25,847 nucleotides of DNA, from contig QZWS01000112.1 of the NCBI GenBank assembly GCA_004114245.1, forward strand, positions 1 through 25,847, written 5' to 3'. This stretch comes from Zoopage sp. CT-All (lineage: Eukaryota > Zoopagomycota > Zoopagomycetes > Zoopagales > Zoopagaceae). Below, one piece after another: positions 12,007-25,847 of the stretch. Numbering within the stretch: the first letter of the stretch is position 1; each line of letters starts with the position of its first letter. The notes under the pieces are model-generated. The model ran no database searches, was not told the DNA's origin, and was given only the letters and a program-made list of their open reading frames with translations. The position numbers were made by a program, and so were the translations under genes.

Positions 12007-13113
12007 TCAAACATGAACAGCATCGCTGTCAGTCTTATCTCGGAAAACAACAGTATCGGCTTCGCTTTTGGCCTCGGAGTTGGAATCCGTCTGAATGACA
12101 TCAGGCGTCACAATAGCCGCATCGGTACGCTCGGGGAGCTCAAGTCGCTTGCGCAGCTCACCCCATCGCAAATCGACACCGTCCAACCAGCCTACAACAC
12201 GCGTAACCATTGTCGAGCCAAGATCGCGTCGAGAGCCTTTTGCTTCCGACCACCACCCCGCTTGCTCCTCGCCATCGCGATGCTGCTTTAGGGACATCGA
12301 CCACTCCACCAATGCACGTCGTTCTTCGATCGCGCGGTAAAGCAGTGCCAAATACGCAGACCATATCCCCAGAGTGACCATGACGGCGAGTACGAGATCG
12401 ATGGTGTAGTGCCGACTTGTCAGTCCCACAAACAGGATCCCTACCGTTGCATGCACGTAGCCATAGTACGAGACGAATCGCCAGCGTGGATAGAGTCTAA
12501 ATTGGACGGCACACATGCTCATGATCATCGTGTGACCGCTGTATATCATATCCGTGCAGGCCTTGGTCGAGCCGAACGCAATCTTTACGGCACTGGCCAG
12601 CACCGCGGCAGGACCATTGCCAAACGTAGTTACTGGCACGCAACCAGGAAGCGGCGACGGCATGAGAGTAAGCGAAATAATGAGCGAGCGGCCCAGATAC
12701 AACATCCCGGTGATCCAGCAGACGCGGCGGATGGCGATTAGGATCCGGTGAAGCCAGCCTTTGTATGAATCGGGGCGACCCCGTGCCGTACGTGTTTCAA
12801 TGAGGATCATAAGTATGGTTATGCCTAGTAGCGTCTCCATAAACAAATCCGCGGCTTTGGGCAGATCCAAGAAGACGGCGTCGAGAAGAAGGTCCTTCAG
12901 GCGAGGCGCCGAGCCACCAACTGCATCAAGATACTGCTGCCACCGCCAATCCGACGACTGAATGGAGATACCGCACACTATCCCCGCTATAAATAAAAAG
13001 AGCGCCGCTAGAAGGGTGCGCGATGTCTCGCATTGGAGGCGGAGTGCTTTTACGATTCGCGCACGAACGGCGAGTCGGTCGAAAGCCGGAATCGACGGCC
13101 ATCGTACGTGCAT
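12007..13113 (-). CDS. Sphingomyelin-synthase-type (PAP2-like C) phosphotransferase, copy 1
   Basis: Intronless, 368 aa, multi-pass membrane protein. It carries the sphingomyelin synthase signature: LGRSLIISLTLMPSPLPGC resembles the D2 region (family: LPVPG), IYSGHT supplies catalytic His194 (D3 motif), and HYTID supplies His235 and Asp239 (D4 motif). This His/His/Asp triad transfers a phospho-head group onto ceramide in the Golgi or plasma membrane in known SMS enzymes. Head group and acceptor cannot be read here; related enzymes make sphingomyelin, ceramide phosphoethanolamine or inositol phosphorylceramide. A soluble C-terminal tail of about 100 residues includes VVGWLDGVDLRW, shared with the neighbouring copy. 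It lies in tandem with copy 2, 187 bp apart on the same strand. Confidence 0.85.
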   Translation of the reverse strand: MHVRWPSIPAFDRLAVRARIVKALRLQCETSRTLLAALFLFIAGIVCGISIQSSDWRWQQYLDAVGGSAPRLKDLLLDAVFLDLPKAADLFMETLLGITILMILIETRTARGRPDSYKGWLHRILIAIRRVCWITGMLYLGRSLIISLTLMPSPLPGCVPVTTFGNGPAAVLASAVKIAFGSTKACTDMIYSGHTMIMSMCAVQFRLYPRWRFVSYYGYVHATVGILFVGLTSRHYTIDLVLAVMVTLGIWSAYLALLYRAIEERRALVEWSMSLKQHRDGEEQAGWWSEAKGSRRDLGSTMVTRVVGWLDGVDLRWGELRKRLELPERTDAAIVTPDVIQTDSNSEAKSEADTVVFRDKTDSDAVHV

Positions 13114-13300
13114 GGTACCACAGTCGGATATACCTGTTTAGGCGAGAGAGTGGGGAGAGGATGGAATATCGGTTGACGGATGTGGAGCGATTGGAGCGAT
13201 GTGGCGACGCTTATTTTTGGTGCAGATCTATTTTTCGACCGCGGCCGATGCTTCCGAAGTCGCACAAAATCAATATAAATTATTTGGCCATTACGATGCG

Positions 13301-14443
13301 CTACACCTGTTCATTGCTATCTCGCACCTCTAGCACAGAGTCTGTGCGAAGAGTAGTTGCATCAGGCGGTGTACTGCCCCAGTCATGATCCACCTCGCTC
13401 GCTGGAGCAGAACGCTGCCCGGCATCCGGCTCCTGCTTATCCCCAAATACTGCACGAGTCTGCTTAGGCAGCAGCGACAGATTGCGCGAGACCTGCTCCC
13501 ATCGCAAGTCGACTCCATCGAGCCAGCCCACGACGCGGGCAAGCACGCCGGCTCCTAGCCATCGTCGTACATTCATTGCCTCCCACCACCAGCCTTCCGA
13601 TTCTGCGTCCCAGTGCCGCGTGAGAGGCAGCCCAACCGTGACCAAAGTATGGCGCTCTTCAATCGCGCGGTCTAGCATCAGGAGGTACGCAAACCACGCG
13701 CCGACTGTCACCATCAGCGCCAGGACCACATCAACAGTGTAGTGCAGATGCGTTAGCACCACAAACACCACGCCCGTGGTCGCATGAACATATCCGTAGT
13801 AGGATAGGAAACGCGATCGGGGATAGAGGCGGAACTGTATCGCGCAGGTGGTGAGAATCATCGTATGACCACTGTAGATCATATCGCTGCACGCCTTGGT
13901 AACGCCAACAATAAGCAGCACGGCGGTAGCCAGAACAGTTCCAAACCCGTCGTGAAACGTCGCGATGGGCTTGCAGTTGTCGGTTGGGGCGGGAAGCAGT
14001 GTGACGGAGAGGGCGAGCGCTCGGCCGAGGTAGAGCATAGAGGTGATCCAGAAAATGCGTCGTAGAGCAGTGGATGCCCGTCGTCCCCAGCCCTCGGTTG
14101 ACCACGGTCGACCCCGGGCAGTTCGCGTTTCCACCACAATCATTAGAATAGTAAGGGCAAGCAGCGATAGCATGAGTGCATCGGCGGCGGCGGGGGCGTG
14201 CACGTACACGGAATCCAGCACCAAGTCCTGCAAGCTCTCCCCCGAGCCGCTGCTTGTTTTCAAGTAATCGCTCAATCGGTTGTCTGACGCCTCGATTGCC
14301 ACAGCACATATTAAGCCGCTTATGATAACGGCGATGCCGGCGAACACGGTGCGAGATGCTTCGGTTCGGAGGAGGATGATTGCTTTAAGGCGGGCGTGAT
14401 ATCTATTCCACCATGCGCCGTTCTGAGGCGGAGATGGATGCAT
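13301..14443 (-). CDS. Sphingomyelin-synthase-type (PAP2-like C) phosphotransferase, copy 2
   Basis: Intronless, 380 aa; a tandem paralogue of the gene at 12007-13113. Both share ETRTARGRP, W-I-T-x-MLYLGR, the D3 motif IYSGHT (His193 here), FRLYPRxRFxSYYGYVHAT, the D4 motif HYTVD (His234, Asp238) and the tail motif RVVGWLDGVDLRW. All catalytic residues of the family are present in both copies, so neither looks dead. The copies differ in the N-terminal 30 residues, in the lumenal loop before D2, and in the last ~60 residues. That divergence suggests an old duplication kept for two roles, perhaps two head groups or two compartments (inference). Expected location is Golgi or plasma membrane. Confidence 0.85.
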   Translation of the reverse strand: MHPSPPQNGAWWNRYHARLKAIILLRTEASRTVFAGIAVIISGLICAVAIEASDNRLSDYLKTSSGSGESLQDLVLDSVYVHAPAAADALMLSLLALTILMIVVETRTARGRPWSTEGWGRRASTALRRIFWITSMLYLGRALALSVTLLPAPTDNCKPIATFHDGFGTVLATAVLLIVGVTKACSDMIYSGHTMILTTCAIQFRLYPRSRFLSYYGYVHATTGVVFVVLTHLHYTVDVVLALMVTVGAWFAYLLMLDRAIEERHTLVTVGLPLTRHWDAESEGWWWEAMNVRRWLGAGVLARVVGWLDGVDLRWEQVSRNLSLLPKQTRAVFGDKQEPDAGQRSAPASEVDHDWGSTPPDATTLRTDSVLEVRDSNEQV

Positions 14444-15059: not shown

Positions 15060-15359
15060 GATGACGTAATTTTGCTTTCCGTGGAGTGGCAGTGGCAGAG
15101 GTGTGGGTGGAGGAGTGGTGATGTTTGCGAGTTTGCTGACTGTTCTTGTATAAGATGAGACGCCTAACAACCAATTATAGGAATTGGCCTGTGTGAAGCG
15201 CCGTCAAATTCATATGAAACACTTATAGACAATCACCATTCATGGGAAATTCACACGTGTTAATATAGCTATGAATAAAATCAGATCCACAGTACTTTCC
15301 CAACATTCCACCATCGCCCCCAACACAGTTACGACACTACCTACGACGAACATTACACC
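15060..15359. other. Divergent intergenic region upstream of two secreted-protein genes
   Basis: This 300-bp region lies between the minus-strand start at 15059 and the plus-strand start at 15360. The last ~70 bases are C/A-rich and match the 5' flank of the second copy of the secreted pair (about 15905-15973). No gene, RNA or repeat is seen apart from that. Confidence 0.5.
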
Positions 15360-15725
15360 ATGCAGTTGACAACGCGAGCCAGCGCCTTTCTTCTTGCTTC
15401 TACCGCCGTCGCCTTTGTTGTGACCACACCCCCCTTCATCTCGGCATCCACCACCGTCGTCAGCGATCCGGACCTCGACTATTACCTCTGGCGTCAAGAG
15501 AGGCTAAAACCTATTGCTTTACAGGTGAAACGTGATCATCCAAGCTTCAGCGCTGAGCAGGTGGAAAAGGAGACCGAATTAAGATACAAGGTGATGCGTG
15601 CAAGGTATTCTGGTTTTTCGCGGGCAGTGAGTGGGTTTACTGGCTCAAAACCCACACCCTCACAGAGAGCGGATAGGTCGAGTTTTCCCAAAAAGCACTG
15701 GAATAATGCCGAGACACATTCTTAG
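15360..15725 (+). CDS. Small secreted protein, first of a tandem pair
   Basis: 121 aa, no intron. The N-terminus is a clear signal peptide (MQLTTRASAFLLASTAVAFV, then VTTPPFISAS). The mature part is a Tyr/Asp stretch (DLDYYLWRQERLK), a conserved block KxIALQVKRxHPSFSAEQVExE, and a basic Ser-rich tail ending FPKKHWNNAETHS. It has no Cys. I know no named family that fits. The neighbour at 15974 is a paralogue sharing promoter, signal peptide and conserved block, so the pair arose by a local duplication of roughly 600 bp. Probable role: a secreted protein facing a host or the environment, but nothing in the sequence proves that. Confidence 0.65.
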   Translation: MQLTTRASAFLLASTAVAFVVTTPPFISASTTVVSDPDLDYYLWRQERLKPIALQVKRDHPSFSAEQVEKETELRYKVMRARYSGFSRAVSGFTGSKPTPSQRADRSSFPKKHWNNAETHS

Positions 15726-15973
15726 GCAGTAGTGATTGCTGAGGCGATGTAAGCATGAGATCAAGTACAGATACCTGTGCGTTGATTATTTCACCTGCGC
15801 TGAGAGAAGCGCATTCCTTTCTTCCTAGCTTGTATTCTCTCACAAATGGGAGGAGCTAGAAAGTGGCTCGGTATGTGATGTGTTGACTGTCCAAGGTTTT
15901 ACTCTGTTCGGTCCAAACCTTTCACCATCGCCACCAGCACGGTTACGACATCACCTACAACAAGTATAGCACC

Positions 15974-16399
15974 ATGCAGTTGACAGCAAAAATTGGCACC
16001 CTTCTTCTCGCTTCTGTCGCCGTTACCTTTGTTGTGACCACACTCCCTTCTATCTCGGCATCCAACACCAACCCGTACACCAACCAGTACACCAATCAAT
16101 ACACCAACCAATACACCAACCAATACACCAACCAGTACACCAATCACGACACCGACCTGTACACCGACCCGTACACCAGATATTGTCTCTGGTATCAAGA
16201 GCGGCTAAAAACTATTGCTCTACAGGTGAAACGTGAACATCCAAGCTTTAGTGCTGAACAGGTGGAAGAGGAGGCCAAATTAAGACACAATAAGAGTAGG
16301 TGGCATCCTTATTATATACGGGCAGCGAGCGGGTGTACTGATTCAAAGCCCGTGGACTCGCAGAGGGCGGATAAGTCGGGGCTTCCCAAAAAACACTAG
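15974..16399 (+). CDS. Small secreted protein with NQYT repeats, second of a tandem pair
   Basis: 141 aa, no intron, with a signal peptide like its neighbour (MQLTAKIGTLLLASVAVTFV). Between the signal and the conserved block sits an array of four-residue units (consensus Y-T-N-Q) coded by 16064-16180. After it come LWYQERLKTIALQVKR and HPSFSAEQVEEE, then a basic tail ending GLPKKH. The stop is at a TAG (16397-16399) where the first copy has TGG (Trp), so this protein lacks the last seven residues; a second in-frame TAG follows at the place of the first copy's own stop. The single Cys residues after the repeat (YCLW, GCTD) are absent from copy 1. Function unknown. Confidence 0.65.
   Translation: MQLTAKIGTLLLASVAVTFVVTTLPSISASNTNPYTNQYTNQYTNQYTNQYTNQYTNHDTDLYTDPYTRYCLWYQERLKTIALQVKREHPSFSAEQVEEEAKLRHNKSRWHPYYIRAASGCTDSKPVDSQRADKSGLPKKH
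16064..16180 (+). repeat. 12-bp coding tandem repeat (TAC ACC AAC CAR)
   Basis: Nine full 12-nt units and part of a tenth run in frame from 16064. The central units (16076-16135) differ only at third codon positions (AAC/AAT, CAA/CAG). The outer ones have drifted to Asn-Pro, Asn-His, Asp-Leu and Asp-Pro variants. The first copy of the gene pair has no such array at the same place, so it expanded after the duplication. A repeat of this kind changes length easily by slippage. Confidence 0.85.
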
Positions 16400-16605
16400 A
16401 GTAATGTCGAGACGCATTCATAGGCAGTAGTGATCACTGAGGCAATGTAAGTGTGAAATCGAGTACAGATGCTTTGTGTTGATTATTACACCTACGCTCT
16501 TTGCATTAGGGGAAGTCCACGCCTTTCTCCTATCTAGCTGTAAATTATTCTGCCCAGCATTCAAGAGTTCTAAATACTACCATGCTATACTTGACACAGT
16601 ATTAT

Positions 16606-23082: not shown

Positions 23083-23423
23083 TTAATCATGACGCTTGAT
23101 GCTTGTCGCATCAAATCCGGGCATGGGGAATGACTGGGCCAGCTCGATGACCTCACGCTTGACCTGCTCCAACTCAGCATTGCCCTCCAAGGCGACCAGG
23201 AAATCCTTGACGAGCTTGCTGCCGGACCTTTCCTGCACCATCAGAGCAATCTGTGCGGTGCGGTGCAGTAATTCAGCGACCTTGACCATGTCTGACTCCT
23301 TGAACGAGCGCGAGGTGAGCGCAGCAGTACCGATGCGTATGCCGCCAGGGGACAACGCCGACGTATCTCCGTGAACAGTGTTCTTATTCAGTGTGATGTT
23401 GGCCAAATCACAAATCTTCTCCA
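23083..23423 (-). pseudogene. Detached 3' end of serine hydroxymethyltransferase
   Basis: This frame encodes the last 112 residues of an [53 protein letters not shown], and a C-terminus ending DATSIKRHD. It has no start of its own; it begins inside an exon and is preceded by the end of the coiled-coil gene. Its first 55 bases (23369-23423) are a perfect reverse complement of the last 55 bases of the window, where the SHMT body is cut. Body (374 residues) plus this piece, less the 18 shared residues, gives about 468, the normal cytosolic SHMT length. It is therefore most likely the missing end of the same gene, displaced by misassembly or inversion, rather than a decaying copy; no disabling change is seen in it. 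Confidence 0.85.
23369..23423 (-). repeat. 55-bp perfect inverted repeat, left copy
   Basis: Reverse complement of 25793-25847, identical over all 55 bases and diverging immediately outside (GTGG against ATGG at the body side). It codes for the same SHMT residues in both places. In this copy it also supplies the last codons and the stop of the coiled-coil frame. Confidence 0.97.
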
Positions 23424-24590
23424 CTTGACTGAGTCAGCTGGTCGAGCACACTTTCGATCTGTGCAATCCTGGCAGCATTACCATCACCAGTCTGTCCATG
23501 CTGTGCAGACTGTCTGAGAGCCAACCGAATTTCTTCCAGCACGGCACTGGACGGTAGAGCAGGTCCCGCTTTGGGGACAAGGGCACTGACATCTGCTGCG
23601 GTTTGAGCGTCTATAGCGGCTCTGCTCTCAGTGTACTGCGCTTCCTCGTCGTCTACTACCATCAGCCAGACATGGTGGAGGACGGTGAATACGGAGTGCG
23701 GCCAGCTCCTTCTTCTTCGATGCGAGTTCTGTCTGCAACCGAGTGCACTCTGCGACATCCAGGGTCAGATCAGCGTGCACTTCGTCATTCAAATCCGCGG
23801 CTGTCCTATTCAATGCGTCCAATCTTGCCTCCGCTCTGTCATTCTGCATACGCATTGTGGCCATATATGCTTCAAATTCGTCGAGAATTCGCATGATTTC
23901 ATCTCGCTTGCGTGAGAGTGAATGCAGCTTTGCCTTCTCCTCGCGGATGGAGCTCTGTAGCGCGCGGTGCTCATCCATCTCCACATTCTCCTCTGACTGC
24001 TCCACCTGATCCTCGAGTTCGTTCTGTGCAAATTAAGAATATGCGGTGGAGGACGGAATGGTACAGTTTGCAGTTGCGTCTCATAGAGATCGATCTTGTC
24101 CTGGGCCCCGTTGAAGCGCTGCGTAATGTCGTCCAGCTCCTCCAGCACTCCAGGGACATCGCTTCCGAGATATTAGCAATGCAAATCTTTCATCTTAATC
24201 ACACACCATATCTCTCTAAGCGAGTCAATGGCGTTAAAGATGGCCTCGAGCGCGTCTTCATGTTGCGACGTCTTACCAGCACGTACATCCCGCTGTACCT
24301 GCCGAGCCTCTCTACAAGCTGCCTCAATAAACCCCTCATAATTACCAAGACTCTGCGTACATTAGGGCCTCGTCTTTGGTGCGATTGTCGACGAGGTACA
24401 TCTGCTGCTCGGAAAGCGTGGCACCGCGCTCGATGACTCCGCGATGGATGTGTACCGCGGACCACGACGCGTCGGCATCGGAGATAAAACTCGCGTCGCT
24501 GTTGCTGATGGTTGCCATGAGCGCATTGTGGGCGTTTGCTGCCTGCGCGGACGCGGCCACGGCGGCATTGAGCGAGGTGGCCCAAGGCAT
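23408..24590 (-). CDS. Coiled-coil protein, 5 exons, C-terminus suspect
   Basis: Model: exons 24590-24400, 24350-24207, 24161-24065, 24023-23693, 23652-23408; introns of 49, 45, 41 and 40 nt; 335 aa, in phase. The N-terminal part is Ala-rich (SLNAAVAASAQAANAHN). Then come helical segments (GFIEAACREARQVQRDV; VLEELDDITQRFNGAQDKIDLYETQL) and a long charged coiled coil from about residue 145 to 245 (EDQVEQSEENVEMDEHR, LHSLSRKRDEIMRILDEFE). The C-terminal helix contains LEEIRLALRQSAQ. The layout suggests a structural or complex subunit, but I do not recognise the family. The first junction is uncertain, and intron 4 may end 3 nt earlier (37 nt). An upstream ATG at 24632 overlaps the SHMT start. 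The last residues (GEDL, stop) lie inside the SHMT-derived 55-bp repeat and may be an artefact. Confidence 0.55.
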
Positions 24591-24630
24591 GTTGACGACT
24601 CGAGCAGTCTGCTTTTCTCCGCACGCAGAC

Positions 24631-25847
24631 ATGGCCTCTCCTGCCCCCGTCGTCGCCGATTCCTGGGTAGCAGCCCTCGGATTGTCCATAATTATCCTAA
24701 TCGCTATATTACAGAACACCGGCTTGAACACGACGCTGCAGCAGGAAGATAAGGAGATCTACGATCTGATCGAGAATGAAAAATATCGGCAGTGGAGTGG
24801 CCTCGAGCTGATTGCCTCAGAGGTGCATTGCTCCCTCCCTTTGTGCTGTCCCATAGCCGCCGTATAGAATTTCACATCGCAAGCTGTGATGGAGGCAAAC
24901 GGCTCCTGCTTGACAAACAAATACTCCGAGGGGCTGCCAGGCGCGCGCTACTACGGCGGAAACGAATTCATCGACGAGGTCGAAAATCTGTGCCGCAAGC
25001 GCGCGCTCGACGCTTTCCGACTCGCGCCGTCCGAATGGGGTGTCAACGTGCAGCCATACTCGGGCAGCACTGCCAACTTTGCAGCACTCACCGCGCTCAT
25101 CAAGCCCCATGATCGCCTGATGGGTCTGGACCTGCCATCCGGCGGCCACCTTACGCATGGCTACCAGACTGCCAAAAAGAAGATCTCGGCCTCGTCGATC
25201 TACTTTGAATCGATGCCGTATCAGGTGGATTCGGAGACGGGATTGCTCGACTATGATCAGCTGGAGCGCAACGCGGAACTGTTCCGGCCCAAGCTCATCA
25301 TCTGCGGCGCCTCGTGCTACGCCCGCGACTGGGACTATGGGCGACTGCGCAAGATCGCTGACCATCACGGCGCATACCTCATGGCTGACATCGCGCACAT
25401 TTCTGGGCTGGTCTCGGCTCAGGAGGCCGAGAACCCATTCGTGTATTGCGATGTGGTGACCACCACGACCCACAAGACCCTGCGTGGCCCGCGCGCTGGC
25501 CTCATATTCTTCCGCCGCGGTGTTGACCACACTGACCTCGAGTCGCGTGTCAACCAGGCCGTGTTCCCTGCGACTCAGGGCGGTCCACACAACAACACCA
25601 TAGCCGCGGTCGCAGTGGCACTCAAGCAAGCCGCGAGCCCGGAGTTTCGTCGCTATGCACAGCAGGTCAAGGCCAATGCGCGCAAGCTCGCCGCCGCGCT
25701 CATGGAACACGGCTACACCATTGTCACCGATGGCACCGATAATCACACCGTGATCTGGGACCTACGTCCCATAAAGCTGACCGGATCCAAGATGGAGAAG
25801 ATTTGTGATTTGGCCAACATCACACTGAATAAGAACACTGTTCACGG
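24631..25847 (+). CDS. Serine hydroxymethyltransferase, truncated at the right edge
   Basis: PLP enzyme that interconverts serine and glycine while loading the one-carbon unit onto tetrahydrofolate. Exons: 24631-24666, 24715-24822, 24868 to beyond 25847; introns of 48 and 45 nt; 374 residues present. Family features: [13 protein letters not shown] joined across intron 2 to [17 protein letters not shown]-like [41 protein letters not shown], and the PLP lysine Lys251 in [12 protein letters not shown]. No mitochondrial presequence is evident, so it is probably the cytosolic form. Intron 1 is a multiple of three with no stop, so a raw reading shows a false hydrophobic segment. Its ATG is 41 bases from that of the divergent coiled-coil gene. 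The missing C-terminus is at 23083-23423 on the other strand. Confidence 0.93.
25793..25847 (+). repeat. 55-bp perfect inverted repeat, right copy ending at the window edge
   Basis: Identical to the reverse complement of 23369-23423. The match ends with the last base of the window, so its true length on this side cannot be seen. Exact coincidence of repeat end and sequence end is what a de Bruijn assembler leaves where a contig stops at a shared k-mer. Confidence 0.97.

Follow-up and report, generated by a model that had tools for sequence, protein, structure and literature searches.

The window analysed here is the whole of contig C360, 25,847 nucleotides long, in the 419-contig, 8.62-Mb assembly of Zoopage sp. 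CT-All, and base 25847 is a contig end. Close to that end lies an SHMT gene in two pieces on opposite strands: a body that runs on the plus strand to the last base, and a 3' piece on the minus strand, next to a divergent coiled-coil gene that lies between the two pieces. A stretch of 55 bases, which we call v, is shared by the two SHMT pieces in inverted orientation, and its terminal copy forms the last 55 bases of the contig. The coordinates are collected in the table, together with the contig ends of the assembly at which a comparable inverted copy was found; contig ends are written with s for the start and e for the end. Further to the left, at 12007-14443, there are two adjacent PAP2_C (PF14360) genes, apparently a tandem duplicate, and at 15298-16470 there are related small open reading frames in tandem (15360-15725 and 15974-16399; 78-82% DNA identity in blocks), of which the one at 15974-16399 has a 12-bp tandem repeat that is in frame and reads NQYT.

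Table. Features of contig C360 and inverted copies of terminal sequence at contig ends of the same assembly
Feature	Position	Strand	Basis or remark
Left contig end, 55-bp overlap with the end of C9	1..55		exact, reverse strand
SHMT 3' end, last 112 residues and stop codon	23083..23423	-	PF00464; P0003, 78% identity
55-mer v, internal inverted copy	23369..23423	-	exact for 55
Divergent coiled-coil gene, short inferred introns	23408..24632	-	reading frames
Loop block, orientation most likely wrong relative to 1-23423	23424..25792		both ends on 55-mer v
SHMT exon 1 (inferred)	24631..24666	+	12 residues; by eye against the P0003 N-terminus
SHMT intron 1 (inferred)	24667-24714	+	48 nt; GT..AG; by eye
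SHMT exon 2 (inferred)	24715..24822	+	36 residues; by eye against P0003
SHMT intron 2 (inferred)	24823-24867	+	45 nt; GT..AG; by eye
SHMT exon 3, the body, open up to the contig end	24868..25847	+	PF00464; P0003, 81% identity
55-mer v, terminal copy at the right end of C360	25793..25847	+	divergence at base 56
Inverted terminal copy, C360e			55 exact; 2369 nt between arms
Inverted terminal copy, C3e			51; 1570 nt between arms
Inverted terminal copy, C300e			52; 602 nt between arms
Inverted terminal copy, C50s			50 exact, 57 with 1 mismatch; 423 nt between arms
Inverted terminal copy, C250s			28 exact, 46 with 1 mismatch; 2453 nt between arms

The identity of both pieces is firmly established by profile search and by comparison with relatives. 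The plus-strand frame at 24886-25845 matches PF00464 with an E-value of 8.7e-154 (512.4 bits, profile positions 37-363), and the minus-strand frame at 23424-23086, in which the coding part of the 3' piece runs from 23423 to 23086, matches it with an E-value of 6.3e-15 (55.1 bits, positions 348-398 of 399). Both scores exceed the curated cut-off of 27 bits, and jointly the two pieces cover positions 37-398 of the 399 in the profile. SHMT chains in the PDB are likewise matched by both, for example 9dhb at 73-401 and at 384-494. Among the 120 best of 8000 scored candidates, the named relatives are mostly early-diverging fungi, with one plant-labelled record, and the best of them is P0003 (473 aa), from a MAG labelled Piptocephalis tieghemiana. 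Residues 52-378 of P0003 align to the body with 265 of 327 identical (81%), and residues 361-471 align to the 3' piece with 87 of 111 identical (78%), in the same frame as the body. The PDB and P0003 alignments also make visible a 14-residue stretch in the body that we take to be the PLP-binding lysine region. These results bear out the sequence-only reading, which had placed an SHMT body on the plus strand up to the last base and the final 112 residues on the minus strand, and which had put the two together at about 468 residues, the usual length of an SHMT: with the two inferred introns removed the pieces come to about 469 residues, although not as a single chain in the contig as assembled, and the relatives P0003 and P0005-P0011 are single chains of 465-473 aa.

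The two alignments to P0003 overlap at its residues 361-378, which is the region of the 55-mer; v carries 17 whole codons of this region in the same frame, and the first 17 residues of the 3' piece are accordingly encoded a second time by the terminal 55-mer of the body. What the contig shows as two inverted pieces, the body and the 3' piece, is a single gene. Because passing from the body through v into the 3' end yields a continuous conserved protein, we regard that connection as the true one. The SHMT gene itself is ordinary, and only the order and orientation of its parts in this contig differ from the PF00464 family. That the organism really makes its SHMT from two separate genes is suggested by nothing beyond the raw gene layout; it is contradicted by the 17 codons common to both pieces, by the lack of any natural end or start at the break, and by the relatives just named, each of which is one chain, and we consider it extremely improbable.

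Between the two SHMT pieces, the coiled-coil gene is read in several frames on the minus strand, the last of which crosses 23423/23424 and meets its stop no more than 16 nt into v. No homologue reached E<=0.001 among 7489 candidates, three of its frames gave no Pfam match in the profile search, and no continuation of the gene beyond 23424 was found on any other contig searched. The SHMT and coiled-coil genes point away from each other, and the first candidate start codons of the two overlap at 24630-24633; the genome is compact, and its inferred introns measure about 40-50 nt.

The repeat itself had been described from the letters as an exact reverse complement of 55 bases that stops precisely where the sequence ends, and the repeat search agrees on both counts: the arms are 55 nt long, 100% complementary and 2369 nt apart, and the right-hand arm is the last 55 bases of the contig. 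Six further inverted pairs were listed, all 21-39 nt long and 72-90% complementary. In a genome of 8.6 Mb the match between the arms has an E-value of 1.4e-21, far beyond chance. At the inner borders the letters read CAAG/TGGAG on the coiled-coil side and CAAGA/TGGAG on the body side (the slash marks the junction), and BLAST lengthens the repeat here by a few gapped bases. The opposite end of the contig has a shared stretch of the same length: bases 1-55, once reverse-complemented, are identical to the final 55 of contig C9 (18854 nt), an end-to-end overlap of one k-mer.

Repeated sequence of other kinds was also seen at and near contig ends. Bases 1-54 of the window resemble near-end sequence at C258:35-88, C138:28-81, C123:2-52 and C230:61317-61371, as well as the interiors of other contigs, the resemblances being those of a dispersed repeat where contigs break. 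A MITE-like dispersed element, about 80 bp long and bounded by the terminal inverted repeats TGTGGTG...CACCACA, matched more than 15 contigs, with copies on C419 (L011:3-59), C264 (L102), C254 (L106), C269 (L104) and others, seven of them viewed in context. The short element at the start of C419 had been taken as intron-like, an idea that was dropped once its wider context revealed these same terminal inverted repeats, TGTGGTG...CACCACA. A second dispersed family of about 110 bp (TGTGGAG...CTCACCACA) is present at the start of C30 and on C318, C20, C7 and C127.

The length of the repeat led the argument beyond this locus to the assembly as a whole. We searched 97 contig ends, the right end of C360 included, against the entire assembly; the ends outside this survey are C4s, C95s and C105s (simple repeats), C350s and C374e, and C418s, C390s and C310s (these three N). 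A terminal exact run of 55 bases that is also present elsewhere in the assembly was found at no fewer than 15 of the 97 ends, a lower bound in that five of the searches scored the best 40 of 45, 58, 68, 65 and 79 candidate places and some stretches read N. Among the diverged repeat matches, exact terminal run lengths were determined for a minority. At 11 of the 15 the letters were checked and the mismatch falls at base 56 (C360e, C360s, C400s, C359e, C359s, C340s, C340e, C361s, C3s, C290s and C370s, with C359s having three partners for its terminal 55-mer); the other four (C25s, C65s, C254e and C192e) are known from BLAST coordinates only. We left out of the 15 C30s, which has a dispersed element at its start and BLAST runs of 55 and 56. 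Terminal runs of other lengths occur as well, namely 28, 45 (C410s), 50, 51, 52, 56 (C30s, by BLAST) and at least 80 (C35s and C190e), and the remaining ends have either no match or diverged repeat matches (for example C30e, C110e, C210s/e, C370e, C350e and C264e).

Similarity remains high past the mismatch at base 56 in three of the 15 cases, C3s, C361s and C340s, where the contig breaks off at a real diverged repeat or haplotype. At C3s, 55 bases are exact and identity is about 96% over 93 bp, and the partner looks like a diverged local duplicate; the partner of C340s is on C241. Some ends have counterparts that are 98-99% identical (C361s with C190, C410s with C349). The last 55 bases of C359 lie inside C192 (11440-11494) and the last 55 of C192 lie inside C359 (23293-23347), a reciprocal overlap that suggests a bubble or a haplotype pair. 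A terminal shared stretch of fixed length that recurs across an assembly is the mark of a k-mer end-overlap artefact, and such a stretch recurs across this one; 55 looks like the word length of the assembler. The default final k of SPAdes and metaSPAdes is 55. The right end of C360 resembles the end overlap of length k left by a de Bruijn assembler of the SPAdes type in its 55 shared terminal bases and in the difference at base 56, and it departs from that type in that its partner lies inside the same contig, inverted, which would close a hairpin loop.

Inverted partners of this sort are not confined to C360. At no fewer than 5 of the 97 ends the terminal 46-57 bases recur, inverted, at a distance of 0.4-2.5 kb along the same contig, and since four of them are on unrelated contigs, the inverted pattern is not special to SHMT. 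The length is exactly 55 at C360e alone, and 46-57 at the others, which may represent dead-end tips and not loops that close. The nearness of the arms is not expected by chance, as a random partner could lie anywhere in 8.6 Mb. Inverted joins of neighbouring segments are known from MDA, whose inverted chimeras (Lasken and Stockwell 2007) share with the present cases the inverted orientation, segments less than 10 kb apart and, here, an occurrence at several contig ends. The single-cell MDA data set of that publication comprises 475 chimeras, of which 406 were inverted; the segments lay less than 10 kb apart in 337 of the inverted chimeras and in just 11 direct ones (PMC1855051). In another study chimeric distances range from 0 to more than 5,000 nt and peak at 250-300 (PMC4595205). 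Judged from the contigs alone, the likeness lies in recurrent inverted joins 0.4-2.5 kb apart, and the orientation and spacing of the inverted terminal copies fit local chimeras of the published MDA type. Inverted chimeras would not be the sole local event, because C3s, C290s and C254e have their exact terminal 55-mer repeated on the same contig in direct orientation.

A real short inverted repeat at this locus is unlikely. Its likeliest form is a partial inverted duplication, by which an SHMT stretch of at least 55 bp, perhaps even the whole 3' end of the gene, was copied beside the coiled-coil gene while an intact SHMT continues beyond the contig end. Such a contig would likewise break off at the shared 55-mer, and exact 55-bp runs at diverged real repeats do exist in this assembly (C3s, and C340s with C241). 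We searched the 3' end and the whole block against the organism's own contigs, the smallest of those seen being about 10 kb: among them there was no second SHMT 3' end, and v turned up at two places and at no third. A real second SHMT 3' end was therefore rejected as a candidate, for besides the two known places the search returned nothing but the SHMT on C386, the sole other one found, a separate paralogue with 56% identity and no internal stop. The 3' piece, moreover, is intact, in frame and conserved nearly as well as the body, and looks like the only 3' end there is, and inverted terminal copies are seen on four unrelated contigs too. We therefore hold a partial inverted duplication to be unlikely.

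We conclude that the contig very probably contains a single, ordinary SHMT gene from an early-diverging fungus, mis-joined in the course of assembly by way of a hairpin loop at k=55. We counted in favour of this mis-join the fact that the 3' piece and the body are in one frame and have similar identity to one relative. In the de Bruijn graph with k=55 that we infer from the contig ends, the block between the arms, with the coiled-coil gene and the SHMT body, would become a hairpin loop hanging on v. Both ends of the block would lead into v, the join through the SHMT body being the true one and the join of the coiled-coil gene at 23423/23424 the false one. The false edge between the coiled-coil gene and v would most likely stem from a local inverted (fold-back) chimera in the reads or the library, its presumed source being an amplification chimera, a fold-back during library preparation or a minor variant. 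Such a loop could be passed in either direction, and the assembler would have chosen the wrong one, coming from the SHMT 3' side and entering by the coiled-coil end. On returning to v through the SHMT body it would have had to stop, the sole exit being the SHMT 3' side already used; the exact coincidence of the contig end with the last base of v would follow from the assembler having stopped on meeting v again.

The sequence-only reading had offered two explanations, a misassembly at a shared 55-mer and a real inversion or flip between short inverted repeats. The first is supported by the exact terminal 55-mers at 15 or more of the 97 ends, the end-to-end overlap of 55 with C9, and the four further inverted copies; nothing that we found speaks specifically for the second. 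The geometry at the contig end can be counted in favour of an inversion polymorphism or flip of the 2.4-kb block, whether it distinguishes haplotypes or strains or comes from recombination between short inverted repeats, and haplotypes or close paralogues may be mixed in the assembly, as the 98-99% identical pairs C361s/C190 and C410s/C349 indicate. A clean inversion, however, would be expected to branch at 25792/25793, with v and the far flank as the alternative continuations of the body, and not 55 bases later, and a flip mediated by the repeat requires v to be followed by a third sequence, of which there is none among the contigs seen (of about 10 kb or more). C360 has no outer flank beyond 25847. 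We regard a real inversion or flip as very unlikely, and rate lower still the more far-reaching notion that the block exists in both orientations, within the population or the nucleus, and that its flipping at an inverted repeat of at least 55 bp switches SHMT, a one-carbon gene, on and off.

Under the assembly reading that we prefer, the split and inverted SHMT seen here is almost certainly not a real biological feature, and no biological importance attaches to it. In this assembly a terminal repeat of exactly 55 bp is likely to mark an artefact, and so is an inverted copy of a terminus elsewhere in its own contig; apparent inversions, split genes and inverted repeats at its contig ends, at least 5 of 97 of which have the inverted form, should not be taken for rearrangements of the genome without support from reads.
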